From Candidatus Poribacteria bacterium (lineage in GTDB: Bacteria; Poribacteria; WGA-4E; WGA-3G), in the NCBI GenBank assembly GCA_022824265.1, contig JAJEAG010000088.1, forward strand, positions 1 through 33,812: 33,812 bases of DNA, read 5' to 3'. Positions 1-28,759 of the stretch are shown here, one piece after another; within the stretch, counting starts at the first letter, position 1; each line of letters begins with the position of its first letter. A program made the position numbers and the translations under genes. The notes below the pieces were generated by a model that ran no database searches, had not been told where the DNA came from, and was given only the letters and a program-made list of their open reading frames with translations.

Positions 1-567
1 ATATTTAACGTCACGGAAATCGTGGTTTAGATTTAGGGCATGTCCCAATTCATGTGCAATCAAATTCACAACGTCATCTTCTCTTACACAATTACCTGTC
101 GAGGGAATGAAAACCGGACCGCCTCCGTATCGTGCTTTACCACAATAACCGCCGATCAAACCGTTGCTAACGTCAATAGAAATGATATAGATATTGTCAT
201 CCACATCATGGAACTTTTGTCTTATCTCTGCTTCTACTTTCTTAATAGTGTTGTTGTGGTAATATGCATCGTCAAATTTACCCATAACTTGATGGATAAC
301 AGGGTTATTATTGGCATCTTCTTCGTATTCAAAAGTCATTCTGCCGTAACCGTGAAATTCCATTTGATCTGCGTAGAATTCTTGAGTTTGTTTTATCTGA
401 TCTGATAATTCTAAGGATATGTGTTTTTGGACTGGTCGGTTTTTAGGGACGAAGTATACTGTTTTTGTTATATGCTTTTGTGCTGCATTGACGTTTGTGA
501 TTAAAAATGTAGTGCTAAAAAATACGATTATCGAAATTATACTCGTTAAGATAACGTTTTTGAACAT
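1..567 (-). CDS. Secreted metzincin-like zinc metalloprotease, 3'-truncated by the window edge
   Basis: Reading the minus strand from ATG at 567 gives an open frame of 189 codons that runs off the left end without a stop. It is preceded by a good Shine-Dalgarno (GAGGAG, about 570-578). The first ~32 residues form a signal peptide (basic MFKN, then a hydrophobic stretch ending in NVNA-A). Near the truncated end is HELGHALNLNH, which fits HExxHxxxxxH, the three-histidine zinc site of metzincins (matrixin/astacin type). The usual Gly at position 8 of the motif is Asn here. It is presumably an exported protease acting outside the cytoplasm; substrate unknown. The Met-turn and C-terminal domains lie outside the window. 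The protease call is strong for the motif but the subfamily is unassigned. Two plus-strand ORFs over the same DNA (40-405, 419-676) are antisense shadows. Confidence 0.8.
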   Translation of the reverse strand, partial: MFKNVILTSIISIIVFFSTTFLITNVNAAQKHITKTVYFVPKNRPVQKHISLELSDQIKQTQEFYADQMEFHGYGRMTFEYEEDANNNPVIHQVMGKFDDAYYHNNTIKKVEAEIRQKFHDVDDNIYIISIDVSNGLIGGYCGKARYGGGPVFIPSTGNCVREDDVVNLIAHELGHALNLNHDFRDVKY

Positions 568-3154: not shown

Positions 3155-3350
3155 TCCCATCCTAGGAGCGAGGTCTCCTCGCCTGTCTTGTAGGAGCGAT
3201 CTCCGAATTGCGACCTCATCACCAGCGGTGCGAAAGGTGTATACTTCCACCAAAACCCTCTTCTCTTATCCTGCAAATCCTGTAAATCCTGCAAATCCTG
3301 GTTCAGACAAAATTCTGACAACCTTGTAGGTGCGAGGTCTCCTCGCCGCA
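3155..3350. repeat. Cluster of dispersed repeats (families B, C, D)
   Basis: In order: GGAGCGAGGTCTCCTCGCC palindrome (about 3163-3182); family B TGTAGGAGCGATCTCCGAAT...CGACC (3188-3215; nearly identical at 13089-13116 and, reversed, at 28733-28759); family D ACCAGCGGTGCG...GGTGTATA (3220-3243); family C, short tandem TCCTGCAAA/TCCTGTAAA units ending GGTTCAGACAAA (3260-3320; related at 12863-12910 and 28704-28725); and another GTAGGTGCGAGGTCTCCTCG palindrome (about 3328-3350). No gene is seen from here to 3591. Confidence 0.75.
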
Positions 3351-3591
3351 TTCACACATCCCATCGTATGGACAGTGTTTCCCTGTTCGTCTTCACGGTA
3401 ATCTCAAACCCCGTCCTTACGATAGGAATGTGTTGTGAGATCAAACCCCTTCCGCGTCTTCTACAATTCAGACAGAAAAATCGGCAATTGAATGTCTATG
3501 CAGTCCACATAAAGGTCATTGACTTTTCTGATGAATTATGTCATACTTATATAGTAGTGAGTAACAGACAAGTGAGAATTGGTGAGAATGT

Positions 3592-12732: not shown

Positions 12733-13238
12733 TATAAAAACTACACTTACCGAATTACCTAATATACCAGATTCTCATTCCGCGTAATCTACGTAATCCA
12801 GGGAATCATGCAGAATGCCATAAGCGCATTCTGCCGAGGCATTCATACCGTTGATTTGAAAATCTTGGTTCAGACTCTTCTCTTATCCTGTCCATCCTGG
12901 TTGAGACAAACTGAAATTCTGAAAATTACATAAAACATATTGGATATCTATTGTTCCACCTCCTTGATAACCTACCCACCACATACCACCATCTGTTAAA
13001 CTATAACATCATTTCGAAATGACAACTATTTATTAACTCAAAAACGCGTTTGTAGTCGCGCAATTCATTGCGCCTCTTACATTACATTCTGTAGGAGCGA
13101 TCTCCGAATCGCGACCCTACTACAAGGACACCAAGCCCCAGCGTGGCGGCAGGTGTATAGCAAACGCGGAAAATTTAATATCCTTTGTTTCCATTGTAAT
13201 CCGAATATTAACGACTAAATATGAAAAAATACCGAAAA
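12733..13238. repeat. Repeat-dense noncoding region after the TIR/FRG operon
   Basis: Contents in order: a CGCGTAATCTACGTAATCC repeat (about 12778-12803); a hairpin GCAGAATGC (12810-12818) / GCATTCTGC (12826-12834); family C TCTTATCCTG...GGTTGAGACAAA (12863-12910); family A copy 3 (13041-13083, TTTGTAGTCGCGCAATTC...); family B GTAGGAGCGATCTCCGAATC (13089-13116); and family D CCCCAGCGTGGCGGCAGGTG (13131-13160). No convincing coding frame was found. Five different families in 400 bp suggests a preferred landing or recombination zone. Confidence 0.7.
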
Positions 13239-13369
13239 GGAAAAACGCACTAAAATGAAAATTTCAAAAATTTCGTACTACCCCATAAACCCAGTATCAG
13301 ACTGGCATAAACCCGAAAACCAAAACGCACTAATGTGCGAAAAACACCCTTTTTTAGTGCGTTTTTTCC
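13239..13369 (+). repeat. Structured ~130-bp intergenic element, copy 1
   Basis: It begins GGAAAAACGCACTAAAA (13239-13255) and ends with the inverted sequence TTTTAGTGCGTTTTTTCC (13352-13369). A third arm, AAAACGCACTAA, sits at 13322-13333 and can pair with the right end to form a hairpin followed by T6. The centre holds CCCAGTATCAGACTGG (imperfect palindrome). Copy 2 at 28219-28346 (opposite strand) aligns end to end, but its three arms read ACGTACACA where this copy has ACGCACTAA. A 55-codon frame (ATG at about 13255) runs through it but is not conserved in copy 2, although a short tail (PFLVRFF here, PFLCTFL there) looks alike. Confidence 0.7.
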
Positions 13370-13594
13370 AAAGCATTTTATTTCATATTCGGTCAAGTCT
13401 CAATATATTCATAATTGCCTGAATTACAATAGACACAGAAAACGGTAGTATTCCTATATCATACAGAAACGCAAATCCTATGAATACCACATTGAAATAT
13501 CAGAAACCCCTTCAGTGTTTTCAGCGTCTTCAGTGTCTTCAGCGATTCAGACAAATTCCGCGTTTACCGCAAAATTCTCAATAGATAATTCCGC
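13370..13594. repeat. Tandem TCTTCAGCG-type repeat in intergenic DNA
   Basis: At about 13509-13562, CTTCAGTGTTTTCAGCG is followed by further TCTTCAGTG/TCTTCAGCG units and GATTCAGACAAATTCCGCG. The reverse-complement counterpart occurs at about 28590-28668 (CTGAATCGCTGAACGCACTG, GAAGACGCTG units). The rest up to the promoter shows nothing recognisable. Confidence 0.6.
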
Positions 13595-22861: not shown

Positions 22862-24649
22862 ATGAAAATAACCAGATTTATATCTTGGCTGAAACCGATT
22901 TTGGTGTTAAGCCTTGTATGCTGTTTAGCACTTACAGCAACAGCACAAGATTATTACCCGACGGCTATCGGCAATACATGGGTTTTCCTAAATGCCGACG
23001 GTACTGAACGACGCACATATTCCATTGAAGAACCAGATACCGATGAAGCTGAAGGTATTATTATCCTGCGAATATATACTGAGACCCTCGGCACAGATAC
23101 GGTAGATGACGACGTTTATTATATCTCTGATGATGAAGGGGATTTGAAACTTCATAGAACAAGGTTAGAAGAAGGCACATTTGGTATTGCAGCAGCAATG
23201 CTTGATCCTCCCGGGCTTTTCTTTCCAGCAGACCTGCCACTCGGACGGACGTGGGATGTCATGACAACAACGGAATTGAACCTTGTTGGTACAGCAAACA
23301 CTACAAGCACAATAACAGTTGATGCTATTGAAGACGTAGAAACTCCTATAGGAACATTTAAGAACTGTGTCAAACTTAGTATTAATAGAAAAGTCGTAAC
23401 AGCACTCGTAACACTTCGTTCAATTTCATATCAGTGGTTGGGACCTGATCTGGGTCCTGTCAAGTACGAGGATGATCAAGGGATTGTATATGAATTACAA
23501 AGTTATAACTTGGTTGATGATTCAGTAACGGAACCCGAGACCCCAGCTGAACCTGAAACTCCGACAGAACCTGAAACGCCAACGGAACCCGAGACCCCAG
23601 CTGAACCTGAAACTCCGACAGAACCTGAGACACCAACAGAACCTGAGACACCAACAGAGCCTGAAACGCCGACGGAACCCGAGACACCGACGGAACCCGA
23701 AACTCCAACAGAACCTGAAACTCCGACAGAACCCGAATCCAGATTTAATATGAACCTTGTGTCGGGTCTAAACCTTATCTCCATTCCACTAATGCCAGCA
23801 GAACCTTACACAGCAAAATCGCTTGCGACGATGTTGGGCTCTACGGTTGTTATCAAGTTAGATGTGGATAAACAGAGTTTCGTTGGTTACTCTGCTGCAG
23901 AAGAAGGGGATGGATTTGATATAGATGGTATGAGCGGTTACATTATCAACACTCCTGATGGTGGGAAAGTGACGTTCACTGGTACTGCATGGCAAAAACC
24001 TGCTGATGATGTGGCTGCTGCCCCAAAAATCACCACAAATAGAAGCGCGTGGGCATTTGTCATCACAAGTAATTTGCAAGCTGAAGCAAAAGGGAAAACC
24101 TACACGTTAGTTGCTAAAAACCTACGTACCGGTATTGTTGCTACACAGAAAGTTGTCAATGATAACGGATATGTTTCAACTGTATGGGCAGATCTAAATC
24201 GTAAGAGCGTCATCAGTGTTGATGATAAGATTGAGGTTGCGCTCGTTGATGAAAATGGAACAATCGTGTCCGGTCCGTTTCAACGCACTGTTACTGCTAC
24301 AGATATTGACAATGCATATCTAAGTGTACAGATGCGTGTCGGCGATGTCCGACCAAAAGAGACAATTCTGGCACAGAACTTCCCGAATCCTTTCAATCCT
24401 GAGACTTGGATACCTTATCAACTGAGTCGTGACACGAACGTAACGATTCAGATATTTGATCTCTCTGGACATTCGATTCGGACGCTTAATCTCGGTCATA
24501 AGTCAATTGGTGCATACTTGACGAGATCCAGTGCAGCATATTGGGATGGTAAGAATGAGGCGGGGGAACCTGTTTCGAGTGGTATCTATTTCTATTCACT
24601 TAAAACAGAGAATTTTTCTGCCATCCGCAGAATGGTTATCCTTAAGTAA
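22862..24649 (+). CDS. Secreted paralog 2: shared N-domain, (EPETPT)n linker, and FlgD/T9SS-like C-terminal domain
   Basis: A 595-residue exported protein, AAAGGAG before ATG. The signal peptide ends ...TATA-Q. Residues ~29-218 are the same domain as in the neighbours (DYYPTAIGNTWVFL, VYYISDDEGDLKLHRT, VETPIGTFKNCVKLSI, SYQWLGPDLGPVKYE). Residues 224-292 are about 11 hexapeptides EPETPT/EPETPA, a rigid spacer. Next is a ~200-residue region (NLVSGLNLISIPLMPAEPYT...) of the kind that precedes C-terminal sorting modules, then QNFPNPFNPETWIPYQL, FDLSGHSIRTL and SSGIYFYSLKTENFSAIRRM, a FlgD-Ig/T9SS type A-like tail. It is likely displayed or released at the cell surface. Function unknown. Confidence 0.82.
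   Translation: MKITRFISWLKPILVLSLVCCLALTATAQDYYPTAIGNTWVFLNADGTERRTYSIEEPDTDEAEGIIILRIYTETLGTDTVDDDVYYISDDEGDLKLHRTRLEEGTFGIAAAMLDPPGLFFPADLPLGRTWDVMTTTELNLVGTANTTSTITVDAIEDVETPIGTFKNCVKLSINRKVVTALVTLRSISYQWLGPDLGPVKYEDDQGIVYELQSYNLVDDSVTEPETPAEPETPTEPETPTEPETPAEPETPTEPETPTEPETPTEPETPTEPETPTEPETPTEPETPTEPESRFNMNLVSGLNLISIPLMPAEPYTAKSLATMLGSTVVIKLDVDKQSFVGYSAAEEGDGFDIDGMSGYIINTPDGGKVTFTGTAWQKPADDVAAAPKITTNRSAWAFVITSNLQAEAKGKTYTLVAKNLRTGIVATQKVVNDNGYVSTVWADLNRKSVISVDDKIEVALVDENGTIVSGPFQRTVTATDIDNAYLSVQMRVGDVRPKETILAQNFPNPFNPETWIPYQLSRDTNVTIQIFDLSGHSIRTLNLGHKSIGAYLTRSSAAYWDGKNEAGEPVSSGIYFYSLKTENFSAIRRMVILK
23531..23737 (+). repeat. In-frame 18-bp tandem repeat encoding EPETPT
   Basis: About 11.5 units of 18 bp code for Glu-Pro-Glu-Thr-Pro-Thr/Ala. 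Synonymous codons vary from unit to unit, except that the first three units are duplicated almost exactly as a 54-bp block, showing recent slippage or recombination. The minus-strand frames full of Gly-Ser-Val repeats over it are artefacts. Confidence 0.9.
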
Positions 24650-28155: not shown

Positions 28156-28218
28156 GTAATTTAAGATTTTATATCAACCTTGTTTTGTCTTCAAATTCTC
28201 TGGATTTTGCTTCCTTCT

Positions 28219-28346
28219 AAAAACGTACACAAAAAGGGCGTTTTTCGTTTCTGTGTACGTTTTGACTTTTGGGGTTATACCAGTCTGAGACTGGGTTTAT
28301 CAGTGTGTACGAAACTTTTTGAAATTTTCATTTGTGTACGTTTTTT
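28219..28346 (-). repeat. Structured ~130-bp intergenic element, copy 2
   Basis: The reverse complement aligns over its full length to 13239-13369. Ends are AAAAACGTACACAAAAA (28219-28235) and TTTGTGTACGTTTTTT (28331-28346); the inner arm is TGTGTACGTTTT (28252-28263). The centre CCAGTCTGAGACTGG (28280-28294) is a palindrome with 7-bp arms. Compared with copy 1 all three arms changed from ACGCACTAA to ACGTACACA, preserving complementarity. The first-stop context differs, so no protein is conserved. Confidence 0.7.
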
Positions 28347-28539
28347 ATTTGCTTGTTTATGGTCGGTTCTTAGGTGGATATTTTTTGGGTGACGGGTAGT
28401 AGTTTCTGTTGAGAATGTGAGATGTAGTCGGTTTCTGTTTTTCATAGTGGTAGTATTATAACAGGTGTTAAGAAGGGATGGAAGGGTTTATGGGGATTGG
28501 AACAATATGTTTCATGTATGTTTGAGGTAGTTTTCAGAT

Positions 28540-28759
28540 TCTTGGCTATTGGCTATCGGCTGTCAGCTGTCAGAATCTCGGAGAGCGCGGGGTATTGTTG
28601 TCTGAATCGCTGAACGCACTGAAGACGCTGAAGACGCTGAATGATGAGGTGTTTTCAGTGTTTCAGAGAGAAGGACGAGTGGGGTGACTTCTCCGCTACG
28701 GTGTTGTCTGAACCAGGACTTTGAGGATAATAGGTCGCGATTCGGAGAGTGCTTCTACA
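28540..28759. repeat. Composite of dispersed repeats ending at a broken methyltransferase gene
   Basis: TTGGCTATTGGCTATCGG followed by CTGTCAGCTGTCAG (about 28543-28574); a GAAGACGCTG tandem repeat (about 28590-28668, counterpart of 13509-13562); family C TTGTCTGAACCAGGACTTTG (28704-28725); and reversed family B GGTCGCGATTCGGAGAG...CTTCTACA (28733-28759). The coding remnant of the methyltransferase starts directly after the last unit. The ~190 bp before these repeats (28347-28539) shows nothing recognisable. Confidence 0.65.

Follow-up and report, generated by a model that had tools for sequence, protein, structure and literature searches.

Lambdoid immunity repressors are autoregulated helix-turn-helix proteins with several operators of their own near their own start, and these sites change with the recognition helix. 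In the REP/REPIN and RAYT systems, dispersed short palindromes are related to the flanks of a partner gene (PMC3686654; PMC3116915). Repeats beside orthologous partner genes can switch class together, after which the new class is multiplied, an event termed 'orthoswitch' (PMC3686654), and orphan repeats persist after the partner has been lost (PMC3686654; PMC3116915). DUF2280 (PF10045) is an uncharacterised domain of phage proteins, and in an A. baumannii prophage a DUF2280 gene is listed immediately ahead of the one for the terminase large subunit (PMC7760358).

The repeated element described here was found in a window of 33,812 nucleotides, the whole stretch of DNA that was analysed, from the Candidatus Poribacteria genome G000. 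Like the REPIN/RAYT system, it comprises a leader before intact genes and dispersed orphan copies, about 49 and about 70 in two genomes. Unlike that system, its partner is a DUF2280-like protein of helix-turn-helix type rather than an HUH tyrosine transposase, the repeat is a promoter/operator-like leader found on one side of the gene only, the arms lack a GTAG-type tetranucleotide, and spreading driven by the partner is only hypothetical. The 'orthoswitch' (PMC3686654) is the closest published idea, with a different kind of partner protein.

The likeness to lambdoid-type repressors lies in the several half-sites near the gene's own start and in classes that change together with the predicted recognition helix. 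The differences are a leader of about 230 nt in which a direct half-site is combined with a dyad close to the start, the many orphan leaders, and genes that are not phage-borne as far as seen, since tblastn of the intact protein against phages gave no match. The N-terminal residues, approximately 40, are homologous to the phage proteins of DUF2280 and phrog_546 (at most 27.7 bits), whereas the C-terminal three quarters are unrelated to them and were found here only in Poribacteria. No terminase or prophage genes were noticed among the neighbours of the Poribacterial loci.

Two copies of the element in the window

A preliminary description of the window had reported two copies of about 130 bp with a conserved core, which was seen again on direct reading and realignment (109 nt at 76% identity in one alignment). 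Copy 1 (13239..13369, + strand) has flanks of type B and arms of the CGCACTAA class. Its half-site ACGCACTAA occurs on the left at 13245..13253, where the homologous site of intact genes lies about 140-165 nt before the ATG, and was read directly as the inner half-site at 13325-13333 and, inverted, as the right half-site at 13354-13362 (all + strand). An extra partial site, TTTCGTACTA (13271..13280, +), has T at its third position whereas the arms have C. The conserved core ATAAACCCAGTATCAGACTGG (13285..13305, +) can form a hairpin and is the homologue of TATAAACCC(T/A)TAC..ACTGGGTTTA in the leaders of intact genes. The inner and inverted right half-sites make up a dyad (13322..13365, +) that forms a strong RNA hairpin and is followed by T6 at 13362-13367. 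In the aligned type-B copies, the left flank (TCCGAATATTAACGACTAAATATGAAAAAATACCG; 13200..13238, +) forms a short terminal inverted repeat with TATTCGGTC near 13390.

Copy 2 (28219..28346, − strand) has flanks of type A and arms of the CGTACACA class. All of its features are on the − strand. The half-site ACGTACACA was read directly on the left (28333..28341), as the inner half-site (28252-28260) and, inverted, on the right (28223-28231); an extra site, TTTCGTACACA, is at 28304..28314 and the conserved core, ATAAACCCAGTCTCAGACTGG, at 28280..28300. The dyad (28220..28263) is followed by T5 and yields an RNA hairpin of -18 kcal/mol. An extended -10-like box, TGTTATAAT, with a start ..ACTATG (28444..28463) is common to the type-A copies and the intact gene L066, and its match to the consensus makes it the likely promoter of the leader. 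On the 3' side of the T-run is a Shine-Dalgarno-like AGAAGGA (28201..28218). Elsewhere an ATG and a relic, MYLQEKHKQFAVKSYAKF.., follow this site; the relic is gone in copy 2.

The three arms are thus alike within each copy, with ACGCACTAA three times in copy 1 and ACGTACACA three times in copy 2, so that three positions have changed identically in three places. The fourth site (TTTCGTACTA versus TTTCGTACACA) has two of the three changes, as originally claimed.

Copies across two genomes and the concert of their arms

The dyad pattern AAAACGNAC-(22..40)-GTNCGTTTT has 49 matches in G000 (4.45 Mb), nearly all exactly 44 bases long, and the reversed control pattern has none in that genome. The sister genome G009 contains about 70 copies. 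In the 46 core-bearing copies of G000 that were fully scored, the third base of CGnAC was identical across the three arms in 43 (T in 24, C in 17 and A in 2), the mixed copies being L012, L011b and L052. When the 110 scorable copies of both genomes were examined, the third base agreed over all three arms in 92%, with 16% expected if the arms were independent. Agreement was 50% at arm position 6 (16% expected) and 69% at position 7 (36% expected), while position 8 was nearly invariant. The concerted change first proposed from two copies therefore extends to the genome-wide collection at position 3 and is weaker at positions 6 and 7. The concert of the arms is strong, yet not perfect, and mixed combinations (ATT, AAT, TCC and TAA) occur. 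On a tree of the element built without the arms, the T class requires nine changes, at least five of them on strongly supported branches, indicating that the arms changed more than once.

The element as a putative orphan leader

Most copies are of type A. They open with the promoter-like extended -10 box TGTTATAAT and ACTATGAAAAAC, run for about 200 nt and end with the dyad, the T-run, AGAAGGAG and then ATG TAT TTA CAA ..., the first codons of a gene. The order of parts is a promoter-like box, the left half-site, the core hairpin, the inner/right dyad, the T-run, a Shine-Dalgarno sequence, the ATG and a few codons of a truncated gene. These codons correspond to the N-terminus of DUF2280 (E 3e-4) and to that of full-length genes carried by relatives within the genus and the family, and the promoter-like start of the type-A copies also precedes the intact gene L066. 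Since the promoter-like start and the gene-start codons are shared with intact genes, the element in the window is, to judge from this homology, the leader of the DUF2280-like gene family with the gene lost.

Matches to the gene were found in 42 of 59 genomes of the family, confined to two of its four genera, and the relatives that carry an intact gene are all named Candidatus Poribacteria. In G000 itself, two genes are essentially full-length: one at C97 (L128, 68044-68718) and one at C95, which shows a single TAG when aligned over the longer stretch. All remaining matches in G000 are relics no longer than about 45 aa. In two more diverged leaders of G000, L054 and L128, the inner half-sites stand in tandem (CCGTCCCA and CCGTACCA). 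No gene match accompanies L054, whose end resembles the sequence 3' of copy 2 (AAAATCCAGAGAATTTGAAGA); a core match of the same kind is present in G009 (L235).

A protein-coding frame through the element, which the preliminary description had named as a possible explanation of the pattern, is highly improbable. A frame of about 75 aa (MKN..INPVPDW..VRF*) is indeed open in 15 of 39 copies, but it is broken in most, variation is not in excess at the third codon position (0.45, 0.51 and 0.50 bits), and a sequence this poor in T stays open by chance.

The left and right arms could also be the terminal inverted repeats of a MITE mobilized in trans, with arm classes that reflect different transposases. 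This would agree with the 50-70 dispersed copies per genome, with the short outer inverted repeats of the type-B copies (GTCCGAATA) and with the gene copies in G010 that sit within a separate element with the ends GGGTGTGTAAAG..CTTTACACACCC. However, in most copies conserved sequence passes both arms, from about -240 to between +93 and +140 around the core, so the arms are not the ends; in type-A copies the left end moves little, unlike the right end, which varies over this range. The intact relatives, moreover, are leaders of a gene whose product has no transposase-type domain, HUH/Y1 tyrosine transposases included, by Pfam, NCBIfam and PHROGs. The transposase partner suggested earlier is thus not supported, and we regard a MITE as quite improbable.

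The short GGGTGTGTAAAG..CTTTACACACCC element flanks or contains gene copies at L096, L097, L106, L107 and L120 in the single-contig genome G010 and recurs elsewhere in the loci. The motif CAATTGAATGYCTCTG was considered as a conserved right end and rejected: it lies 3' of roughly half the copies in G000 and of one truncated copy in G010, is absent after intact genes and also stands alone at position 3485 of the window. The recurrent motif CAGAAAAATCRACAATTGAATGYCTCTG likewise follows roughly half the copies in G000 and is found, without a copy, at position 3485.

Leaders of intact genes

In the leaders of intact genes the left half-site comes first, some 140-165 nt ahead of the ATG, followed by the core, the dyad within the last 65 nt or so, the Shine-Dalgarno sequence and the ATG. 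The core TATAAACCC(T/A)TAC..ACTGGGTTTA is at about -87 to -115; when its hairpin was scored as a 13-mer in place of a loose regular expression, 21 of 44 leaders reached p<=0.05. Among the 20 full-length genes, 17 have a dyad that exceeds dinucleotide shuffles. Compared with permuted leaders, the left direct site is a better match to the dyad of its own gene (p 2e-5 over 29 leaders; p 0.002 when restricted to the 20 full-length genes), and it is imperfect or absent in several leaders (L062, L064 and L103).

Arms vary between intact genes (GTTACAC, GTTACC, GATACC, CTTACC, CATACC, TGTACCA, CCGTACCA, TGTACG, GATACAG and others). Despite these differences, the arms within one leader mostly agree, and in the group of L064, L069, L157 and L161 the left site and two successive dyads shift together. 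The arms of most orphan copies are not exactly those of either intact G000 protein, and L128 shares CGTACCA with one class only.

Association of the arms with residue 21 of the protein

The intact gene encodes a product of about 240 aa with a DUF2280-like N-terminal helix pair and a helical C-terminus. AlphaFold models, with 22 relatives, predict helices at residues 5-16 and 21-31 followed by a long coiled coil (pLDDT 85). Against the Pfam gathering score of 24 bits, L085 gave the best DUF2280 score (27.7 bits), followed by L071 (22.5), L080 (20.1), L067 (19.2) and L066 (15). Most members fall below the threshold, L062 and L064 give no match to the profile, and the match over the helix-turn-helix part spans only profile positions ~3-42 of 103. 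A fold search of the PDB with the predicted structure had no match, and a profile search of PDB sequences returned chance coiled-coil matches only. A search for a common neighbour gene of the intact copies found that only orthologous neighbourhoods recur.

Residue 21 is the first of predicted helix 2. An arginine at this residue was found with ACC/GGT in the dyad in 17 distinct genes and without it in two (L164 and L165), while the 16 genes with another residue all lack ACC (Fisher 4e-8). With arms found by script, residue 21 had the highest mutual information among 34 N-terminal columns. Local contrasts include L141 (R21/GATACCG) versus L066 (N21/GATACAG) and L069 (R21/CTTACCG) versus L161 (H21/TGTACGA), and L065 is a further example without arginine (T21/TCTTACAG). 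The rule was fixed in advance for seven newly seen leader-bearing genes, mostly relatives of those already known, and all seven agree with it (two Arg with ACC, five non-Arg without). On a tree built from the sequence beyond residue 42 there are four to five independent contrasts between residue 21 and arm, all in the same direction and too few for a sign-test p<0.05, so that phylogeny alone could still explain the association at this level.

The half-sites near the gene change together and follow helix 2 at residue 21. Most probably, the arms are operator half-sites for the protein that the gene itself encodes, and on the natural reading Arg21 would contact the G opposite the second C of ACC. 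Of the two kinds of selection first envisaged, a recognition motif that co-evolves with a binding protein is thus the one borne out, since the leaders precede intact DUF2280-like genes and the arms track residue 21.

One orthologous group of the DUF2280-like gene (L071, L086, L089, L090 and L166) adjoins a Cas3-like helicase (Pfam Cas3-like_C_2 1.8e-29). The same loci also hold a large protein and look like a CRISPR-Cas locus. In genus g2 relatives (L244-L246, L249-L255 and L139), a related protein (MLKRKDLKFRLANRHKEFAIIQFAQFMKPTDVV..) is encoded with no convincing arm leader; it may be an outgroup of the family.

Folding of the element as RNA

The arms could instead be alternative pairing partners in a regulatory leader or small RNA with an intrinsic terminator, covarying to keep the pairing. 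The two copies fold strongly as RNA (z -7.8 and -4.9), and so do their inner/right hairpins (z -4.3 and -6.8; -13.6 and -18.0 kcal/mol). Complementarity between inner and right arms is held in 98% at position 3, and the dyad has a T-run on its 3' side and a promoter-like box upstream. However, among 42 non-Watson-Crick inner/right combinations, 19 are C.A and only seven G.U. The left arm repeats the inner arm in direct orientation, so that either pairing would hide the same right arm, leaving no switch. The T-run is weak before some intact genes such as L128, an Rfam 15 scan of the whole window had no matches above the gathering threshold, and pairing leaves the tie to residue 21 unexplained. 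We consider a structured RNA unlikely, and selection on RNA pairing, as first suggested, is not supported by these data. As for the resemblance of the dyad to a terminator, in the two window copies a stable hairpin precedes T6 or T5 and could terminate transcription, but its loop is longer than a simple terminator scan allows and the T-run is not uniformly strong. A protein might bind the folded RNA.

Exchange of blocks between copies

Of 25 syntenic sites whose flanks are orthologous between G009 and G000, seven have switched arm class throughout, as in L213/L034 (AACCAA three times versus TACACA three times) and L188/L029 (AACCAA three times versus CACAAA three times). At several of these switched sites the core is nearer to non-orthologous copies (rank 23-41); elsewhere it stays near its ortholog. 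Among 109 copies, the nearest copy shares the arm class in 65% when chosen by the core, 44% by the upstream part and 47% by the downstream part, compared with 32% at random, and the top five upstream and core neighbours agree in only 17. The copies are mosaics in which the arms travel with the core. Within a genome, the arms mostly switch as a block through exchange between copies and not by three compensating mutations, and the difference between copies 1 and 2 need not mean three such mutations either. The selection inferred from these two copies was therefore too strong a conclusion, as arms and core are largely exchanged together.

The same linkage of arm class to core block and the replacement of blocks at syntenic sites could suggest that selection played no part, with different arms having become fixed by descent in two subfamilies and the concert resulting only from shared ancestry and gene conversion. 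This would account for the movement of arms, but not for the initial agreement of three separated sites, which holds across intact genes with many unrelated arms and tracks the protein. Such neutral descent seems to us as improbable as the MITE.

Proposed mechanism

Taken as a whole, the proposal that we favour, and hold to be somewhat more probable than its alternatives together, combines an orphan leader of a DUF2280-like gene, arms as half-sites of its protein, autorepression, and scatter with swapping of blocks. It builds on what was observed: the layout and number of the copies, the concert of their arms, the homology of leader and gene start to intact genes, the association of the arms with residue 21, and block exchange. 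The element would be an orphan 5' leader with a control function, belonging to a gene family of Poribacteria that encodes a protein of about 240 aa with a two-helix N-terminal domain of helix-turn-helix type. A direct half-site would lie about 145 nt 5' of the start codon, with a dyad immediately ahead of the ribosome-binding site. The encoded protein would bind these half-sites on DNA and repress its own leader, presumably by roadblock or occlusion. A change in helix 2 would lead to all half-sites of that leader being re-specified together, giving rise to arm families. Copies of the leader and gene start would scatter, by a route of spreading that is conjectural, and then lose the gene. The orphans would swap the arm-and-core block of about 130 bp, and arms would consequently differ in concert between copies such as copies 1 and 2.

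A bolder version, which we think rather doubtful, is a REPIN/RAYT-like system whose central protein is of helix-turn-helix type and non-catalytic, with specificity classes like those of phage immunity. The 50-70 orphan leaders per genome would then serve as distributed operators, terminators or decoys under the trans control of the remaining intact proteins, and arm classes would spread by gene conversion.

For DUF2280, the association provides a testable hypothesis of DNA recognition in which one residue sets the predicted rule (Arg21 with ACC/GGT), and a single bacterial family supplies about ten specificity classes as a natural series. When the arms of dispersed repeats change in concert, the cause can be block exchange rather than compensatory mutation, which cautions against taking covariation as RNA structure.

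Other features of the window

An 18-bp tandem repeat array at 23500-23769 encodes a Pro-Glu-Thr-rich linker, (TEPETP)n, in a protein of 595 aa that likely has a secretion signal. Other dispersed intergenic repeats (GTAGTCGCGCAATTCATTGCGCCTC, TAGGAGCGAGGTCTCCTCGCC and TTCAGCGTCTTCAG) are present at 13048-13116, 3163-3347, 13511-13554 and 28598-28641, and they recur in G000 and its relatives.
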